Assembly: GCA_025774205.1 (NCBI GenBank)
Contig: JALGWK010000218.1
Coordinates: 1-5,348 of the forward strand
DNA: 5,348 bases
Reading direction: 5' to 3'
Origin: a bacterium
GTDB lineage: Bacteria > Blakebacterota > Blakebacteria > Blakebacterales > Blakebacteraceae
How positions within the stretch are numbered: the stretch's first letter is position 1; each line of letters opens with the position of its first letter. Positions 1-5,290 of this stretch are shown in pieces. The notes below the pieces were generated by a model. It was not told where the DNA came from, ran no database searches, and saw only the letters and a list, made by a program, of their open reading frames with translations. The position numbers were made by a program, and so were the translations under genes.

Positions 1-113
1 TCATCATCCTCCTGCCTTCCATCCTTGCGATCCTTGCGGGACTCCTCTGGTGGCGATACCGCCGGAGGCCGGGGAAGGGGATGGCTGTGACCGCGTCGGT
101 TGCGGAGGAATAG
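1..113 (+). CDS. C-terminal end of a GldG-like ABC transporter auxiliary membrane protein (5' truncated by window edge)
   Basis: Reading from base 3, 36 codons stay open to a TAG at 111-113. They encode a hydrophobic stretch (IILLPSILAILAGLLWW) followed by a basic tail (RYRRRPGKG) and a short polar end. This is a last transmembrane helix with a cytoplasmic positive anchor. GldG-type proteins (ABC_transp_aux family) typically end this way, with a large extracytoplasmic domain before a final helix and an arginine-rich tail. The stronger evidence is context: the next gene, 3 nt downstream, encodes a DUF4340 protein, and GldG-like and DUF4340 genes are habitual neighbours in gliding-type ABC exporter cassettes. 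The assignment is an inference, because almost all of the gene lies outside the window. It could be another membrane protein with a C-terminal anchor. Confidence 0.6.
   Translation, partial: IILLPSILAILAGLLWWRYRRRPGKGMAVTASVAEE
104..108 (+). promoter_or_regulatory. Ribosome binding site of the DUF4340 gene
   Basis: GGAGG lies 8 nt before the ATG at 117 and inside the last codons of the upstream gene, whose stop is at 111-113. This is strong, well-spaced support for the start at 117 and for translational coupling of the two genes. Confidence 0.8.
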
Positions 114-116
114 AAC

Positions 117-1091
117 ATGACCGGAAGCACACGGAAATTGCTGATCACATTCGGGATCCTGCTGGTGGTCACTGTCGCCTGGACCACGCTGGAACGGCGC
201 CAGACCACCTCCCGGGTCCGTACCTTCGACCGGGTAGAGGTCGAGGATGTGACCCGGATATCCATCAGCGGCAAGGGCAACGAAGTCAACCTGGAGAAGC
301 GGGGAGGGACCTGGATCATAACCGAACCGCTGGAGTATCCCGCCAACCAGACCCTGGTGGAAGACCTGCTCGAGAAGGCGGGTGAGCTCGCGACCGTGAA
401 CGTCGTTTCGAGCAATCCGGCGAACCACGACCTGTACGAGGTCGGGACTGATACCGGAGTTCTCGTTCAGCTCTACGGCGGGCAGGAAGGTAACCGGCGA
501 ATGCTGTCGGTCTTTATCGGGAAGATGACCAGCGATTTCAACCATACCTACATCCGCCGGTTCTCCGAGGATGACGTCCATACCGCCAGCGGACTCGTGA
601 GCGGCTATTTCAACAAGACCGTCAGCGCCTGGCGCGACCGGACGATCTTCTCCCTGCCGCTGGAGAGCCTCGAACAGGTCTCGGTCGTCGGAGAGGACAC
701 CGATTACACGCTCGCCCGGCGGGGCAGCCTGCCGGAGGCGCCCGATGCGCCCTGGGTGATCCGGACCGCTGATGGAGTGACCGCGGCTGACTCCCTCCAG
801 GCCATGACCATCATCCGGAGGGTTGCCACTCTGACCGCATCCGCGTTCCCGGAACCTGGTGAAGTGATCGAAGCCGACTGGGAGAATCCGCTGCTGACGA
901 TTACCGGTCGACTCGTCGACGGTTCACTGATCGAAGTGACGGCGTTCGACAGGCCGGAGGACAGCAGCAGGTACTATGTGAAAACAGGTGGGGGCGAGAC
1001 GGTCTTCCTGATGTACCGAAGCAACCTCGATGCGGTCCTGCGCCCGGTCGAGGACCTGATGGCGAAGGAGGAGGCAGGATCGGGATTCTGA
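117..1091 (+). CDS. DUF4340 domain-containing, membrane-anchored protein
   Basis: The product is 324 aa with a short basic N-terminus and one transmembrane helix at about residues 7-25 (LLITFGILLVVTVAW). The rest is a mostly beta/alpha extracytoplasmic domain. Features I recognise from the DUF4340 family are the motif WIITEPLEYPAN at about 66-77 followed by a helix (VEDLLEKAGEL), a LYEVG element at about 106-110, strands ending in FIGK (133-136), a TYIRR strand at 144-148, and the WRDRTIF segment at 172-178. A second WVIRTADG-type repeat at about 213-220 is again followed by a helix. Length and topology are normal for the family. No enzymatic motif is visible. Family members accompany GldA/GldF/GldG-type ABC exporters and their molecular role is not known. 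An accessory role at the exporter's extracytoplasmic face is inferred. The start is set by the GGAGG 8 nt upstream. The gene follows the GldG-like stop by 3 nt and ends 16 nt before the next start, so it sits inside an operon. Confidence 0.85.
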   Translation: MTGSTRKLLITFGILLVVTVAWTTLERRQTTSRVRTFDRVEVEDVTRISISGKGNEVNLEKRGGTWIITEPLEYPANQTLVEDLLEKAGELATVNVVSSNPANHDLYEVGTDTGVLVQLYGGQEGNRRMLSVFIGKMTSDFNHTYIRRFSEDDVHTASGLVSGYFNKTVSAWRDRTIFSLPLESLEQVSVVGEDTDYTLARRGSLPEAPDAPWVIRTADGVTAADSLQAMTIIRRVATLTASAFPEPGEVIEADWENPLLTITGRLVDGSLIEVTAFDRPEDSSRYYVKTGGGETVFLMYRSNLDAVLRPVEDLMAKEEAGSGF

Positions 1092-1101
1092 GTGCTACCA
1101 T

Positions 1102-1119
1102 GGGAGGATGAAACCTCTC
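1102..1119 (+). promoter_or_regulatory. Shine-Dalgarno-containing hairpin with the start codon in the loop
   Basis: GGGAGG (1102-1107) directly abuts the ATG at 1108. It can pair with CCTCTC (1114-1119), giving a 6-bp stem with one G-U pair and a 6-nt loop, ATGAAA, that holds the start codon. The only purine-rich ribosome-binding sequence is therefore in the stem. It is also too close to this ATG for optimal use, and it is 15 nt from the next in-frame ATG at 1123. An ATG at 1100 opens a three-codon frame (M-G-G-stop) whose TGA overlaps the real start. The pairing is visible in the sequence, but any regulatory effect is an inference. Confidence 0.35.
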
Positions 1120-1716
1120 CAGATGCCGCCGGCCTGGGAGCGGATCGGCGATGACGGTCCGCTCACGGCGTTCTTCGGTACCATCTTTGATGTGCTCCGG
1201 GCGCCCCTCCGCTTTTTTGATGCGCTTCCCCCGTCAGGACCGGTCGTGTCCGTCATCGGGTTCTGGCTGCTCACGACCCTGCCGCCCATGGTCATCTCCG
1301 GCATCAGCGCCTGGACCTTCCTCCAGGAGATGCTCGAGATCATCGTCACGACGCCCCAGCCGATGTCCTTCAGCATCCCGTGGTGGGTTTTCGTGATCGT
1401 GGCCCCGATCCTCCAGTTCGCCTCCCTGCTGGCTGATATCTGCGCGGTCCACATCCTCCTGAAGATGATGGGGCATGACCGGGGAGGATGGCGCGGCAGC
1501 TTCAGGGCCGGCGGATATGCCTCCGCCCCGGCCGTCTTCGGTTACATCCCCTATATCGGCGCCATGGTGGGGGGGCTGTGGATGGGAGTGCTGCAGTTCG
1601 TGGGGCTGAAACGGATCCACCAGGTTCCGACCGGGATCCTCCTCCTGGCCTACCTCCTCCCGGTCGTGGTGATACTCATCCTGGCCGCGGCGGCGATGGT
1701 CATCGCGATCTCGTCG
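1108..1716 (+). other. Yip1-like membrane domain (codons 1-203)
   Basis: This part could be a complete small membrane protein by itself. Bacterial Yip1-family proteins are typically of about this size, with an N-terminal cytoplasmic helix of the type seen at DVLRAPLRFFDALP and about five membrane segments. Positive-inside reading fits a cytoplasmic N-terminus: the loop at 118-133 (KMMGHDRGGWRGSFR) and LKRIHQVP at 167-174 are basic, while the loop at 70-91 is acidic or neutral. Yip1 domains act in membrane trafficking in eukaryotes, and their bacterial role is unknown. Confidence 0.65.
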
Positions 1717-4389
1717 ATGTTCCTCCGCCGATCCCGATCAACCAGCCCCGGGTCGTTCGCTCCGGCCCTGATGGTCCTGGCCCTCCTGATGCTGGCGGTC
1801 GCTCCATCGGTCACCCGGGCCCAGACAGCTCAGCCTCTCAACTTCGCTCCGGAGAAAGGAGCGTGGCCGGTCGGGTCCCTCGCGGATGATGAATGGGTTC
1901 TGCGGGGTCCGGCCCGACCGGGTGCCTTCATCGACGCGATCGGCCCTTCGGCGGTCTGGATGGGCACCGAGCAGGGCATCCTCGAAGCGTGGATCTGGCC
2001 GTGGAAGATCTTTCATCAGTTCAACCTGGCAGCCCGGACCGGTGAGGTGGGGAGTGAGATCGACCTGAGCGAGCTGGCCCGCACGGTTGAAGTGCGTCCC
2101 TTCGGGGTTCAGATCACCTACGTTCATTCCCGCTTCCAGATCAGGCAGACTCTCTTCGCGCATACCGTCGACCCGGTGCTGGTCATGCTTCTCGAGGTGG
2201 ACACCTCCACCGATCTCACGCTCGTGGCCTCCTTCATCCCCGATCTCCTGCCGATGTGGCCCGCCGGCATGGGGGGGCAGTACGCATACTTCGACGCGGG
2301 CGCTCCCGGTTATGTGCTGGGTGAGAGCCGGGGGAAGGTGAACGCCGTGGTCGGGTCGCCCGACGCTTCGCGGGGATCGTCAGCGCCTGCTCATCAACTG
2401 GCCGGCGCCAACGCCTTCGAGATCCCCGTCACCCGGGAGCGGGCCGGAGAGGGGCCGGTGGTGATGGTCATCACCGGGGGAGAGGAGGATCGGCAGGAAA
2501 CGATCGATCGCTACCGGAGGACGGCCGCCCGGGGCAGCGGACTGCTCGCAGAGCGGAAACAGGCCTGGGCCGACGGTCCCGGCGTGGTAGGACTCGTTCT
2601 ACCTGATCCCATGCTCGAAGAGGCGTACCGCTGGGCGGTGAGTTCACTGACCGATGGCCACCAGTCCACCCCGGGACTCGGCACCGGACTGGTGGCAGGC
2701 TTCGGCCCCACCGGGAGCGGCTATCGACCCGGGTTCTCCTGGTATTTCGGGGGGGATACCAGCATCAACTCCTTCGGCCTGGTGGCAGCCGGGCAGGGGT
2801 GGGTCCTGGCCGACGCCTTCCCCTTCCTGGAGGGGTTCCAGCGCGAGGACGGGAAGATGATGCATGAACTGACCCGCTCGGCAGAGCTGCTCGACTGGTT
2901 CGGCGAGTATCCCTACGCCTTCATCCACGGTGACACGACCCCGTTCTACATCGTTGCCCTCGCCAATTACATCCGCTGGACCGATGACCGGGCCCTCCTC
3001 GAGCGATCGTGGCCTCACCTGATGAAGGCCTACGAGTTCGGACTGTGGGCCGACGAAGACGGCGACGGCCTGATGGACAACTCCCGCGCGGGACTCGGAG
3101 CCTCGGAACTGGGAAGTCTGCGGGAGGGGCTCAGGACCGGGGTCTTCATCGCCACGGTCTGGACCAGGGCGCTCTCCGATCTCGCCTACCTGGCCCGATT
3201 GAGGGGAGAGGAGGAGCTGGCGCCCCGGTTCGAGTCGGAACATCAGCGCGCCCGGGAGCGGCTGGCCGAACTCTTCATCGACCCGGAAACCGGGACCCTC
3301 AACTTCGGCGTGGCGGTCAGCGGCGAGCCGAAGAACGACGCCACCGCCTGGGCCGCGTTCCCGATCGTGTTCGGACTCCTCGAGGGTGAGGCAGCTGAGA
3401 ACACCCTCGACGTGGTCGCCTCGGCGAGGATCACGACCGACTGGGGTACCCGGATGCTCTCGGAGGACAATCCCTTCTACGATCCGGTCGGGTACAACAA
3501 CGGCGCGGTCTGGCCCTTCCTGACCGGCTATGTGGCCATGGCTGAATACGCCGCTGGTCGCCGCTACGCCGGCTATCAGCATCTGCAGCAGGCGGCCGGC
3601 AATACCTGGATCGATGCTCTCGGACGACACCCGGAGGTGATGTCGGGTGATTATTTCACCGCCCTGGAGACGACCGTTCCCCACCAGCTCTTCTCCTCCA
3701 GTCCCGTGCCTGCCAACCTCATCCGGGGTGTGCTCGGTCTGGAACTCGACCTGCCGAACAACCGGATCACCGTTACCCCGCAGCTGCCGGGCGGGTGGAC
3801 GAATCTGCAGATGTACGACTATCCCCTGCCGGGAGGAGGATCTCTCGGATTGAATCTCACCAGGACCTATGAGGGGCGTGAGGTAACCTATTCCCTGTTT
3901 GTCAGCGGTCCCGAGGATCTCACCATCCGGTTCGCGCCCCGGCCGAATGTTCTGGAACGACTGAGCGGCGGGGGTGTCGAGGAGGGACGGCTCCGTTCCG
4001 GAAGATCTACCCTGGCAGTCAGAGGACGGCGCGGATTCGAACTCGACCTGGACGGCCTCCGCTGGGGAAGTGTGGAGGAAGGTCCGGTCAGGTCTGCTCC
4101 CAGGGAAGGGGATCCGCCGACAGGCCTGCGGGTGATCAGGGTCGAGGAGGAGGGGGAACGTGTTGTCCGCCTGGTCCTGGAGGGTCGTGCTGGATATGTC
4201 TATCGTCTGCCCTGTCTTACGCCCTCAGCGATCGAAGAGGTCATGGCTGATGACATCGAGGTCGAGGACGGATGGAATTTTGTCCTTGAGGAGCGCAGCG
4301 TGCTGCTCTTTACGGTTGCCGAGGATGACGGCATGGCGGTCGGAGTCGATGACTACCGGCGGTTCACCATCAGACTGAGAATCAGGTAG
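1108..4389 (+). CDS. Yip1-type membrane domain fused to a six-hairpin glycosidase (glycogen-debranching/GH63-like)
   Basis: This 1093-aa frame has several parts. Residues 1-205 form a Yip1-like multi-pass membrane domain: an amphipathic lead-in (IFDVLRAPLRFFDALPPSG, about 26-44), then hydrophobic segments at about 46-69, 92-117, 137-167 (probably a hairpin) and 175-205. Residues 206-238 look like an internal signal peptide. Residues 240-490 form a beta-rich N-terminal domain. Residues 500-860 form an (alpha/alpha)6 catalytic barrel with the motifs FSWYFGGDT (543-551), FIHGDTTPFYIVALANY (605-621), ADEDGDGLMD (648-657), KNDATAWAAFP (742-752), GYNNGAVWPF (795-804) and EVMSGDYF (843-850). D550, D609 and E843 are candidate active-site acids by position relative to glycogen-debranching and GH63-type enzymes. 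Residues 860-945 resemble the beta domain that closes such enzymes, and 950-1093 form a further unrecognised beta-rich region. The likely reaction is hydrolysis of an alpha-glucan or other alpha-linked sugar outside the cytoplasm, but the substrate cannot be read from the sequence. The start at 1108 has an abutting GGGAGG. M6 (base 1123) is an alternative. Confidence 0.8.
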   Translation: MKPLQMPPAWERIGDDGPLTAFFGTIFDVLRAPLRFFDALPPSGPVVSVIGFWLLTTLPPMVISGISAWTFLQEMLEIIVTTPQPMSFSIPWWVFVIVAPILQFASLLADICAVHILLKMMGHDRGGWRGSFRAGGYASAPAVFGYIPYIGAMVGGLWMGVLQFVGLKRIHQVPTGILLLAYLLPVVVILILAAAAMVIAISSMFLRRSRSTSPGSFAPALMVLALLMLAVAPSVTRAQTAQPLNFAPEKGAWPVGSLADDEWVLRGPARPGAFIDAIGPSAVWMGTEQGILEAWIWPWKIFHQFNLAARTGEVGSEIDLSELARTVEVRPFGVQITYVHSRFQIRQTLFAHTVDPVLVMLLEVDTSTDLTLVASFIPDLLPMWPAGMGGQYAYFDAGAPGYVLGESRGKVNAVVGSPDASRGSSAPAHQLAGANAFEIPVTRERAGEGPVVMVITGGEEDRQETIDRYRRTAARGSGLLAERKQAWADGPGVVGLVLPDPMLEEAYRWAVSSLTDGHQSTPGLGTGLVAGFGPTGSGYRPGFSWYFGGDTSINSFGLVAAGQGWVLADAFPFLEGFQREDGKMMHELTRSAELLDWFGEYPYAFIHGDTTPFYIVALANYIRWTDDRALLERSWPHLMKAYEFGLWADEDGDGLMDNSRAGLGASELGSLREGLRTGVFIATVWTRALSDLAYLARLRGEEELAPRFESEHQRARERLAELFIDPETGTLNFGVAVSGEPKNDATAWAAFPIVFGLLEGEAAENTLDVVASARITTDWGTRMLSEDNPFYDPVGYNNGAVWPFLTGYVAMAEYAAGRRYAGYQHLQQAAGNTWIDALGRHPEVMSGDYFTALETTVPHQLFSSSPVPANLIRGVLGLELDLPNNRITVTPQLPGGWTNLQMYDYPLPGGGSLGLNLTRTYEGREVTYSLFVSGPEDLTIRFAPRPNVLERLSGGGVEEGRLRSGRSTLAVRGRRGFELDLDGLRWGSVEEGPVRSAPREGDPPTGLRVIRVEEEGERVVRLVLEGRAGYVYRLPCLTPSAIEEVMADDIEVEDGWNFVLEERSVLLFTVAEDDGMAVGVDDYRRFTIRLRIR
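1717..1821 (+). other. Internal signal-peptide-like segment (codons 204-238)
   Basis: Codon 204 is an ATG. It is followed by a basic region (FLRRSRSTSPGS), a hydrophobic core (FAPALMVLALLMLAVAP, about 217-233) and SVTRA|QTAQ, which satisfies the small-residue rule of signal peptidase I at -3 (T236) and -1 (A238). The order n-region, h-region, c-region is what a free secretory protein would show at its N-terminus. The minus-strand barrel protein in this window ends its own signal peptide with the same TRA|Q. I see no good ribosome-binding site before base 1717, so internal initiation is not directly supported. The segment could instead be a sixth membrane helix. Confidence 0.6.
1822..3936 (+). 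other. Six-hairpin glycosidase region with N- and C-terminal beta domains (codons 239-943)
   Basis: This is the predicted extracytoplasmic enzyme part. The order is beta-sandwich-like N-terminal domain (strands such as VEVRPFGVQITYVHSRFQIRQ at about 327-347), a linker helix around 478-487, and the helical barrel (500-860) with repeating helix-turn-acidic motifs. The closing beta domain has RGVLGLELDLPNNRITVTPQ, the usual 'region/layout of products' strand pattern seen at the C-terminus of bacterial debranching-type and GH65-like enzymes. The motif GGDT at 548-551 stands where many glycogen-debranching enzymes have GRDT, so the usual arginine is glycine here. The family assignment is by motif memory only, and exact GH family membership is uncertain. 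Confidence 0.65.
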
Positions 4390-4462: not shown

Positions 4463-5131
4463 TTACTTCACCTCACCGGCGGCGAAACCGGTCATGAGCG
4501 TGAGGGAGAGCCAACGCGTCTTCATCTTCCCCGTGCTCGGGGTAGGCGAGGTCACCTCGGAAAAATGAATGGTGAAGGTCACGTCGAATCCCGGACCATC
4601 ACTGTGCCGGTTCATCACCCCCATACCGATCGAATAGCCGGGAACGTGATCAAACCCCTCCACAAGCAGATCTCCGGCATCGGTGGCCTGGCTCTCGAAG
4701 CGGTACCGTCCAACACCACCCTGCAGGTAGGTGAGGGCCTCGTCCATCTCCGAGATCACCACCCGCACGCCCGCCTGGCCGATATTAAAGCCCTGCTTTG
4801 GATTCTGGATAAATATTGCGTTTTCCTCAAGCATCGAGGTGTCGTATCCGAATCTCGGCCGCGAGAGGCCGGCAAAGAGCGCGAAGCCCCTGGTCACGGC
4901 CGCATGCAGTCTGAATTCGAGACCGAAGCTCGAAGTAGCGAATCCACCCCGGAACAGTTCAGTGGCGCCCAGATCGCCGATCGGCATGCAGAACGATACA
5001 CCTGCCTGGAGGATTAAGCGGGGAGGAGCGTCCACCGGGGCTCTCTGGACCGGTCCGATCTGGGCCCTGGTGTCTTCAGAGAAGGGCAGACAGAGGATAA
5101 TGAGGCACAACAGCAGAGGGATCAGGCGCAT
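4463..5131 (-). CDS. Signal-peptide-bearing outer-membrane beta-barrel-like protein
   Basis: The product is 222 aa. Residues 1-23 are a typical signal peptide: M-R, hydrophobic LIPLLLCLIILCLPF, then SEDTRA|Q for signal peptidase I. The cysteines at 10 and 14 do not fit a lipobox, so a lipoprotein is unlikely. After a proline-rich linker (24-37), alternating polar/hydrophobic strands follow: RLILQAGVSF, SSFGLEFRLHAAV, GFALFAGLSRPRFGYD, FNIGQAGVRVVIS, LTYLQGGVGRYRFES, PGYSIGMGVM, GFDVTFTIHFSEV and WLSLTLMTGF. About eight strands with glycine/aromatic girdles suggest a small OmpA/OmpW-sized barrel, though I recognise no specific family. The frame is open upstream to 5254, but the extra 41 residues would bury the signal peptide inside the protein. 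AAAGGA sits 10 nt before the ATG at 5131, so that start is chosen. It is convergent with the glycosidase gene and is transcribed separately. Confidence 0.75.
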   Translation of the reverse strand: MRLIPLLLCLIILCLPFSEDTRAQIGPVQRAPVDAPPRLILQAGVSFCMPIGDLGATELFRGGFATSSFGLEFRLHAAVTRGFALFAGLSRPRFGYDTSMLEENAIFIQNPKQGFNIGQAGVRVVISEMDEALTYLQGGVGRYRFESQATDAGDLLVEGFDHVPGYSIGMGVMNRHSDGPGFDVTFTIHFSEVTSPTPSTGKMKTRWLSLTLMTGFAAGEVK

Positions 5132-5290
5132 CCTCGACAGGTCCTTTCTGGCGGGTGCCAGATATATCTCGATGGTCGTCACGGCTTCGCCGACACGCCG
5201 GTTGAGCAGTATCCTGACTGTACAGATAACGGAGTGGTCCCGGTTCCTGTCCACCCAATAATGTGACCATCCTCCGACCAGCTTCCACGG
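5132..5290 (-). other. Leader region upstream of the barrel protein gene
   Basis: This stretch of about 160 nt holds no gene I can support. It contains the ribosome binding site and, 29-38 nt before the start, a perfect 10-bp AT-rich palindrome, AGATATATCT (5160-5169), which stands out in otherwise GC-rich DNA. TATATC within it could serve as a -10 element, but nothing resembling TTGACA lies at the right distance, so no promoter is called. Confidence 0.4.
5142..5147 (-). promoter_or_regulatory. Ribosome binding site of the barrel protein gene
   Basis: AAAGGA on the minus strand lies 10 nt before the ATG at 5131. Together with the signal peptide that begins there, it decides the start in favour of 5131 over the upstream in-frame start at 5254. 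Confidence 0.6.

Follow-up and report, generated by a model that had tools for sequence, protein, structure and literature searches.

The open reading frame at positions 1108 to 4389 of this DNA raises the question of whether a glycosidase has been built onto a Yip1 membrane domain, or whether two neighboring genes merely read as one. The window, the whole stretch of 5,348 nucleotides analyzed here, is an entire contig (C521) of a draft MAG (527 contigs, 86% complete, 4.8% contamination). As the preliminary description had reported, the frame is uninterrupted: it runs on the forward strand from an ATG to a stop through 1093 codons, with neither internal stops nor frame-breaking indels. Its first part carries a Yip1 domain (PF04893, amino acids 27-196, E 3.6e-8, 33.9 bits against a gathering cut-off of 28.6) that is complete, covering profile positions 1-172 of 173. 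Its second part has a partial match to the MGH1-like_GH family (PF22422, amino acids 678-812, E 1e-12, 48.8 bits against a cut-off of 27; profile positions 172-307 of 356). Since both halves are conserved as protein in relatives, a frame of this kind lies far beyond chance. Sequence comparison with the sister genome, G001, indicates purifying selection on both halves (dN/dS 0.18 for the Yip1 part and 0.09 for the glycosidase part), and the segment that joins them is only 40% identical between the two genomes. The window contains the following features up to the end of the frame:

3 to 113, forward strand: GldG-like gene (ABC_transp_aux), of which the contig start leaves only the 3′ end; the frame ends in ...LLWWRYRRRPGKGMAVTASVAEE and a stop, and was matched by eye to the C-terminus of the GldG-like protein of a third genome of the phylum, G002.
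117 to 1091, forward strand: DUF4340 gene of 324 amino acids, adjoining the GldG-like gene (PF14238, E 1.4e-23); the order is the same in G001 and G002.
1108 to 1716, forward strand: Yip1 part, amino acids 1-203 (PF04893); its orthologue is the free-standing 215-amino-acid Yip1 gene of G001, of which it lacks the last residues and the stop.
1712 to 1713, forward strand: junction at which a 50-bp block of the sister genome is missing, a single gap in the DNA alignment.
1717 to 1821, forward strand: former glycosidase start (ATG 1717, M204, aligned to the ATG of G001) and signal peptide, amino acids 204-238, now in-frame.
1825 to 4389, forward strand: mature glycosidase, with a beta-sandwich at about 265-460, an (alpha/alpha)6 domain at about 500-876 and a C-terminal beta region reaching 1093.

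The ATG at 1108 immediately adjoins a GGGAGG motif, and Yip1 translation may in fact begin at the ATG at 1123 (M6); the conclusions are unaffected by this choice.

The whole phylum is represented by four genomes, and G001 is both the sole other genome of the same genus and the sole informative one. At the sister locus (L031, contig JALGVQ010000003.1), Yip1 and glycosidase lie in two different frames, with 77-86% protein identity to the window (77-78% for the Yip1 part). The Yip1 gene occupies 5210-5857, encodes 215 amino acids and ends in TAA. It is followed by an 11-nt spacer containing an AAGGAG Shine-Dalgarno sequence, and then by the glycosidase, which starts at an ATG at 5869, out of frame with Yip1, and has its own signal peptide. 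Thus the one relative that speaks to the junction has two genes, with a stop ahead of the signal-like segment. G001 is an imperfect reference because its own glycosidase copy is damaged at the 3′ end (L031 8250-8480): about 76 bp of the window (about amino acids 1009-1030) have no counterpart there, the frame changes, the remnant contains a TAG, and the reading frame stops at 824 amino acids. G002 was considered as a second witness and dropped, as its contigs break inside both genes, one ending at Yip1 amino acid 139 and another beginning at enzyme amino acid 457. The fourth genome, G003, had no match.

Aligned as DNA, the window and G001 differ at the gene border by one clean gap of 50 bp. 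The 613 bp upstream of the junction align gap-free; on the downstream side, the alignment has its next gap about 70 bp further on, within the signal peptide. The missing block spans the Yip1 tail, the TAA stop and the AAGGAG Shine-Dalgarno sequence, while the window keeps GTCGATG with the old start at 1717, whose ATG (M204) aligns with that of the G001 glycosidase. Because 50 equals 2 modulo 3, the loss brings the two frames into one. The glycosidase start has thus kept its ATG and lost its Shine-Dalgarno sequence; predicted anti-Shine-Dalgarno pairing upstream of it weakens from -8.7 kcal/mol in G001 to -2.2 kcal/mol in the window. The signal-peptide-like segment that the preliminary description had placed between the domains is indeed there, and corresponds to the old glycosidase signal peptide, in which RRSR is followed by a hydrophobic core (amino acids 217-235) and, judged by eye, a cleavage site after ..VTRA.

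Distant homologues of the glycosidase were sought in one genome per species across 84,980 species. The 80 loci found belong to Aminicenantes, Acidobacteriota, Ignavibacteria, KSB1, WOR-3 and other groups, mostly at 27-41% identity; a search of viral contigs gave no relative. These stand-alone homologues align with the enzyme over much of its length or almost all of it, but none is fused to Yip1 and none adjoins a Gld/DUF4340/Yip1 cluster. Single-sequence and profile searches detected no Yip1 domain in or near the distant loci, G001 being the exception. Where the N-terminal region was in view, the fusion was kept in 0 of 75 distant homologues, as it is not in G001, where the genes are separate. 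A signal-like hydrophobic N-terminal segment was present in 74 of these 75, the remaining one starting at a contig edge. Given homologues that lack Yip1 and almost uniformly start in this way, the enzyme appears to have been ancestrally stand-alone and exported. A search of the available literature collection found no fusion of Yip1 with a glycoside hydrolase.

It is therefore very probable that two adjacent co-directional genes have been joined by an in-frame loss of 50 bp specific to this lineage or to this assembly, a judgment that covers a real deletion and an assembly error alike. The ancestral state would have been a separate gene for a Yip1 membrane protein beside one for a secreted, debranching-enzyme-like (alpha/alpha)6 glycosidase, and loss of the block would have taken away the end of Yip1, its stop codon and the next gene's Shine-Dalgarno sequence, so that the frames met. 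Against this explanation count the single informative close relative, the damage to the sister copy and the lack of a long direct repeat. As for the fusion architecture proposed in the preliminary description, separate genes with a stop between them in G001, and stand-alone homologues elsewhere, leave the reading as a novel architecture unsupported beyond a single contig; most likely the deletion is private to this genome or the assembly has slipped. More generally, a single draft genome in which an intergenic stop has been lost in frame can mimic a new domain architecture, and such cases call for caution.

Within the joined-genes explanation, the 50 bp may be present in the cell and have been dropped from the contig by the assembly or its consensus, a sub-case that is plausible but rather doubtful. 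The fragmented and incomplete source speaks for it, as does the small deletion and frame damage in the glycosidase gene of the related draft. Yet no long direct repeat was seen by eye to flank the gap in the alignment with the sister sequence, so that nothing obvious points to a simple collapse during assembly, and the remaining frames of the window are intact and conserved. If instead the strain or species itself has lost these bases, most of the enzyme would arise by read-through, as a fusion.

That the fusion is real, fixed and functional in this species, with a Yip1 anchor tethering the glycosidase at the membrane, is improbable. The uninterrupted frame, the complete Yip1 domain and the loss of the second gene's Shine-Dalgarno sequence, which would make the enzyme mostly a read-through product, are all consistent with it, but the arrangement was seen in no relative and the linker between the halves is predicted by AlphaFold to be disordered (amino acids 207-251 fall below pLDDT 50). 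The Yip1 copy, compared with other Yip1-domain proteins, has the complete domain and lacks the sister gene's C-terminal tail and stop. Its topology was deduced from hydrophobic segments and charges and not from the AlphaFold model, whose Yip1 half is of low to moderate confidence. Positive residues at about amino acids 119-136 and 168-172 suggest the arrangement usual for Yip1, an N-in protein with five helices and its C-terminus outside. The old signal sequence, following RRSR, would then act as a sixth segment and turn the fused enzyme toward the cytoplasm. This placement, set against the exported-looking relatives, speaks against a working tether, although it is not proof. A very recent real fusion in this species, by which the Gld-like ABC cluster would have acquired a Yip1-anchored glycan hydrolase, is likewise improbable. 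It is highly improbable that the fusion is ancestral and was split by a 50-bp gain in the sister genome, for although two genomes alone cannot fix the polarity, those 50 bp encode the end of Yip1 with its stop and hold a suitably placed Shine-Dalgarno sequence, and each distant enzyme has a gene to itself, beginning with a signal-like segment (74 of 75, the other at a contig edge).

The preliminary description's assignment of a Yip1-like domain and a debranching/GH63-like enzyme was borne out for both domains, while its limit for the enzyme at about 945 was too short, as the enzyme extends to 1093 in the model. The AlphaFold model (38 sequences; mean pLDDT 81.7, mostly above 90 in amino acids 260-1050) is confident from about amino acid 252 to 1093 and has beta domains flanking the helical catalytic domain on both sides. 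A six-hairpin fold with an N-terminal beta-sandwich is present in it, and the best fold match is 7vma_A (Z 32.1, 564 aligned, rmsd 3.4), followed by alpha-L-rhamnosidases, GH94 phosphorylases and GH63 enzymes. The same structure, the Thermococcus gammatolerans amylo-alpha-1,6-glucosidase (archaeal-type glycogen debranching enzyme), is the closest by sequence (E 2.3e-11 with a single sequence, 6e-29 with a profile) and shares the FGxD, GKxxHE and PExxSG motifs. Identity to it is 18%, however, and the window enzyme and its relatives have, in addition, signal-like segments at the N-terminus and a further beta region at the C-terminus. The GH63 and mannosylglycerate hydrolase-like enzymes (MGH1-like PF22422; YgjK, Thermus MGH) have the same (alpha/alpha)6 fold (Z 24-26) but only 13-16% identity and rank behind 7vma. 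None of these debranching-like glycosidases reached an NCBIfam cut-off. All 36 homologues compared share D550, E587, E667 and E843, and by position E667 and E843 would be the likely acid and base. The enzyme would normally work by itself and be exported by means of its own signal peptide; going by its family, it may hydrolyze alpha-glucan-like or related glycans, either periplasmically or outside the cell.

The gliding-type ABC system that had been described upstream was recognized in the sister genome, where GldA-like, GldF-like and GldG-like genes (named for their top NCBIfam matches, each under its curated cut-off) precede DUF4340. The full GldG-like gene of G001 matches PF09822 (1.4e-57) and TIGR03521 GldG (6e-70, under the curated TIGR03521 cut-off), and the order GldG-DUF4340-Yip1 recurs in G002. 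The Yip1 protein would belong with this upstream cluster. The idea that the enzyme and the ABC cluster are in general functionally linked was considered and rejected, since no GldG or DUF4340 homologue was found near the distant glycosidases, which also indicates that the ABC/DUF4340 neighborhood is particular to this lineage. What remains of value is a set of debranching-like glycosidases, apparently exported, whose genes in one small phylum adjoin a GldAFG-like ABC/DUF4340/Yip1 cluster. Downstream of the frame, a convergent open reading frame of 263 amino acids (4463-5254, reverse strand) has no Pfam match and looks like an outer-membrane beta-barrel protein; it resembles, in place and in the start of its sequence, a frame at 8523-9197 on the reverse strand of the G001 locus.
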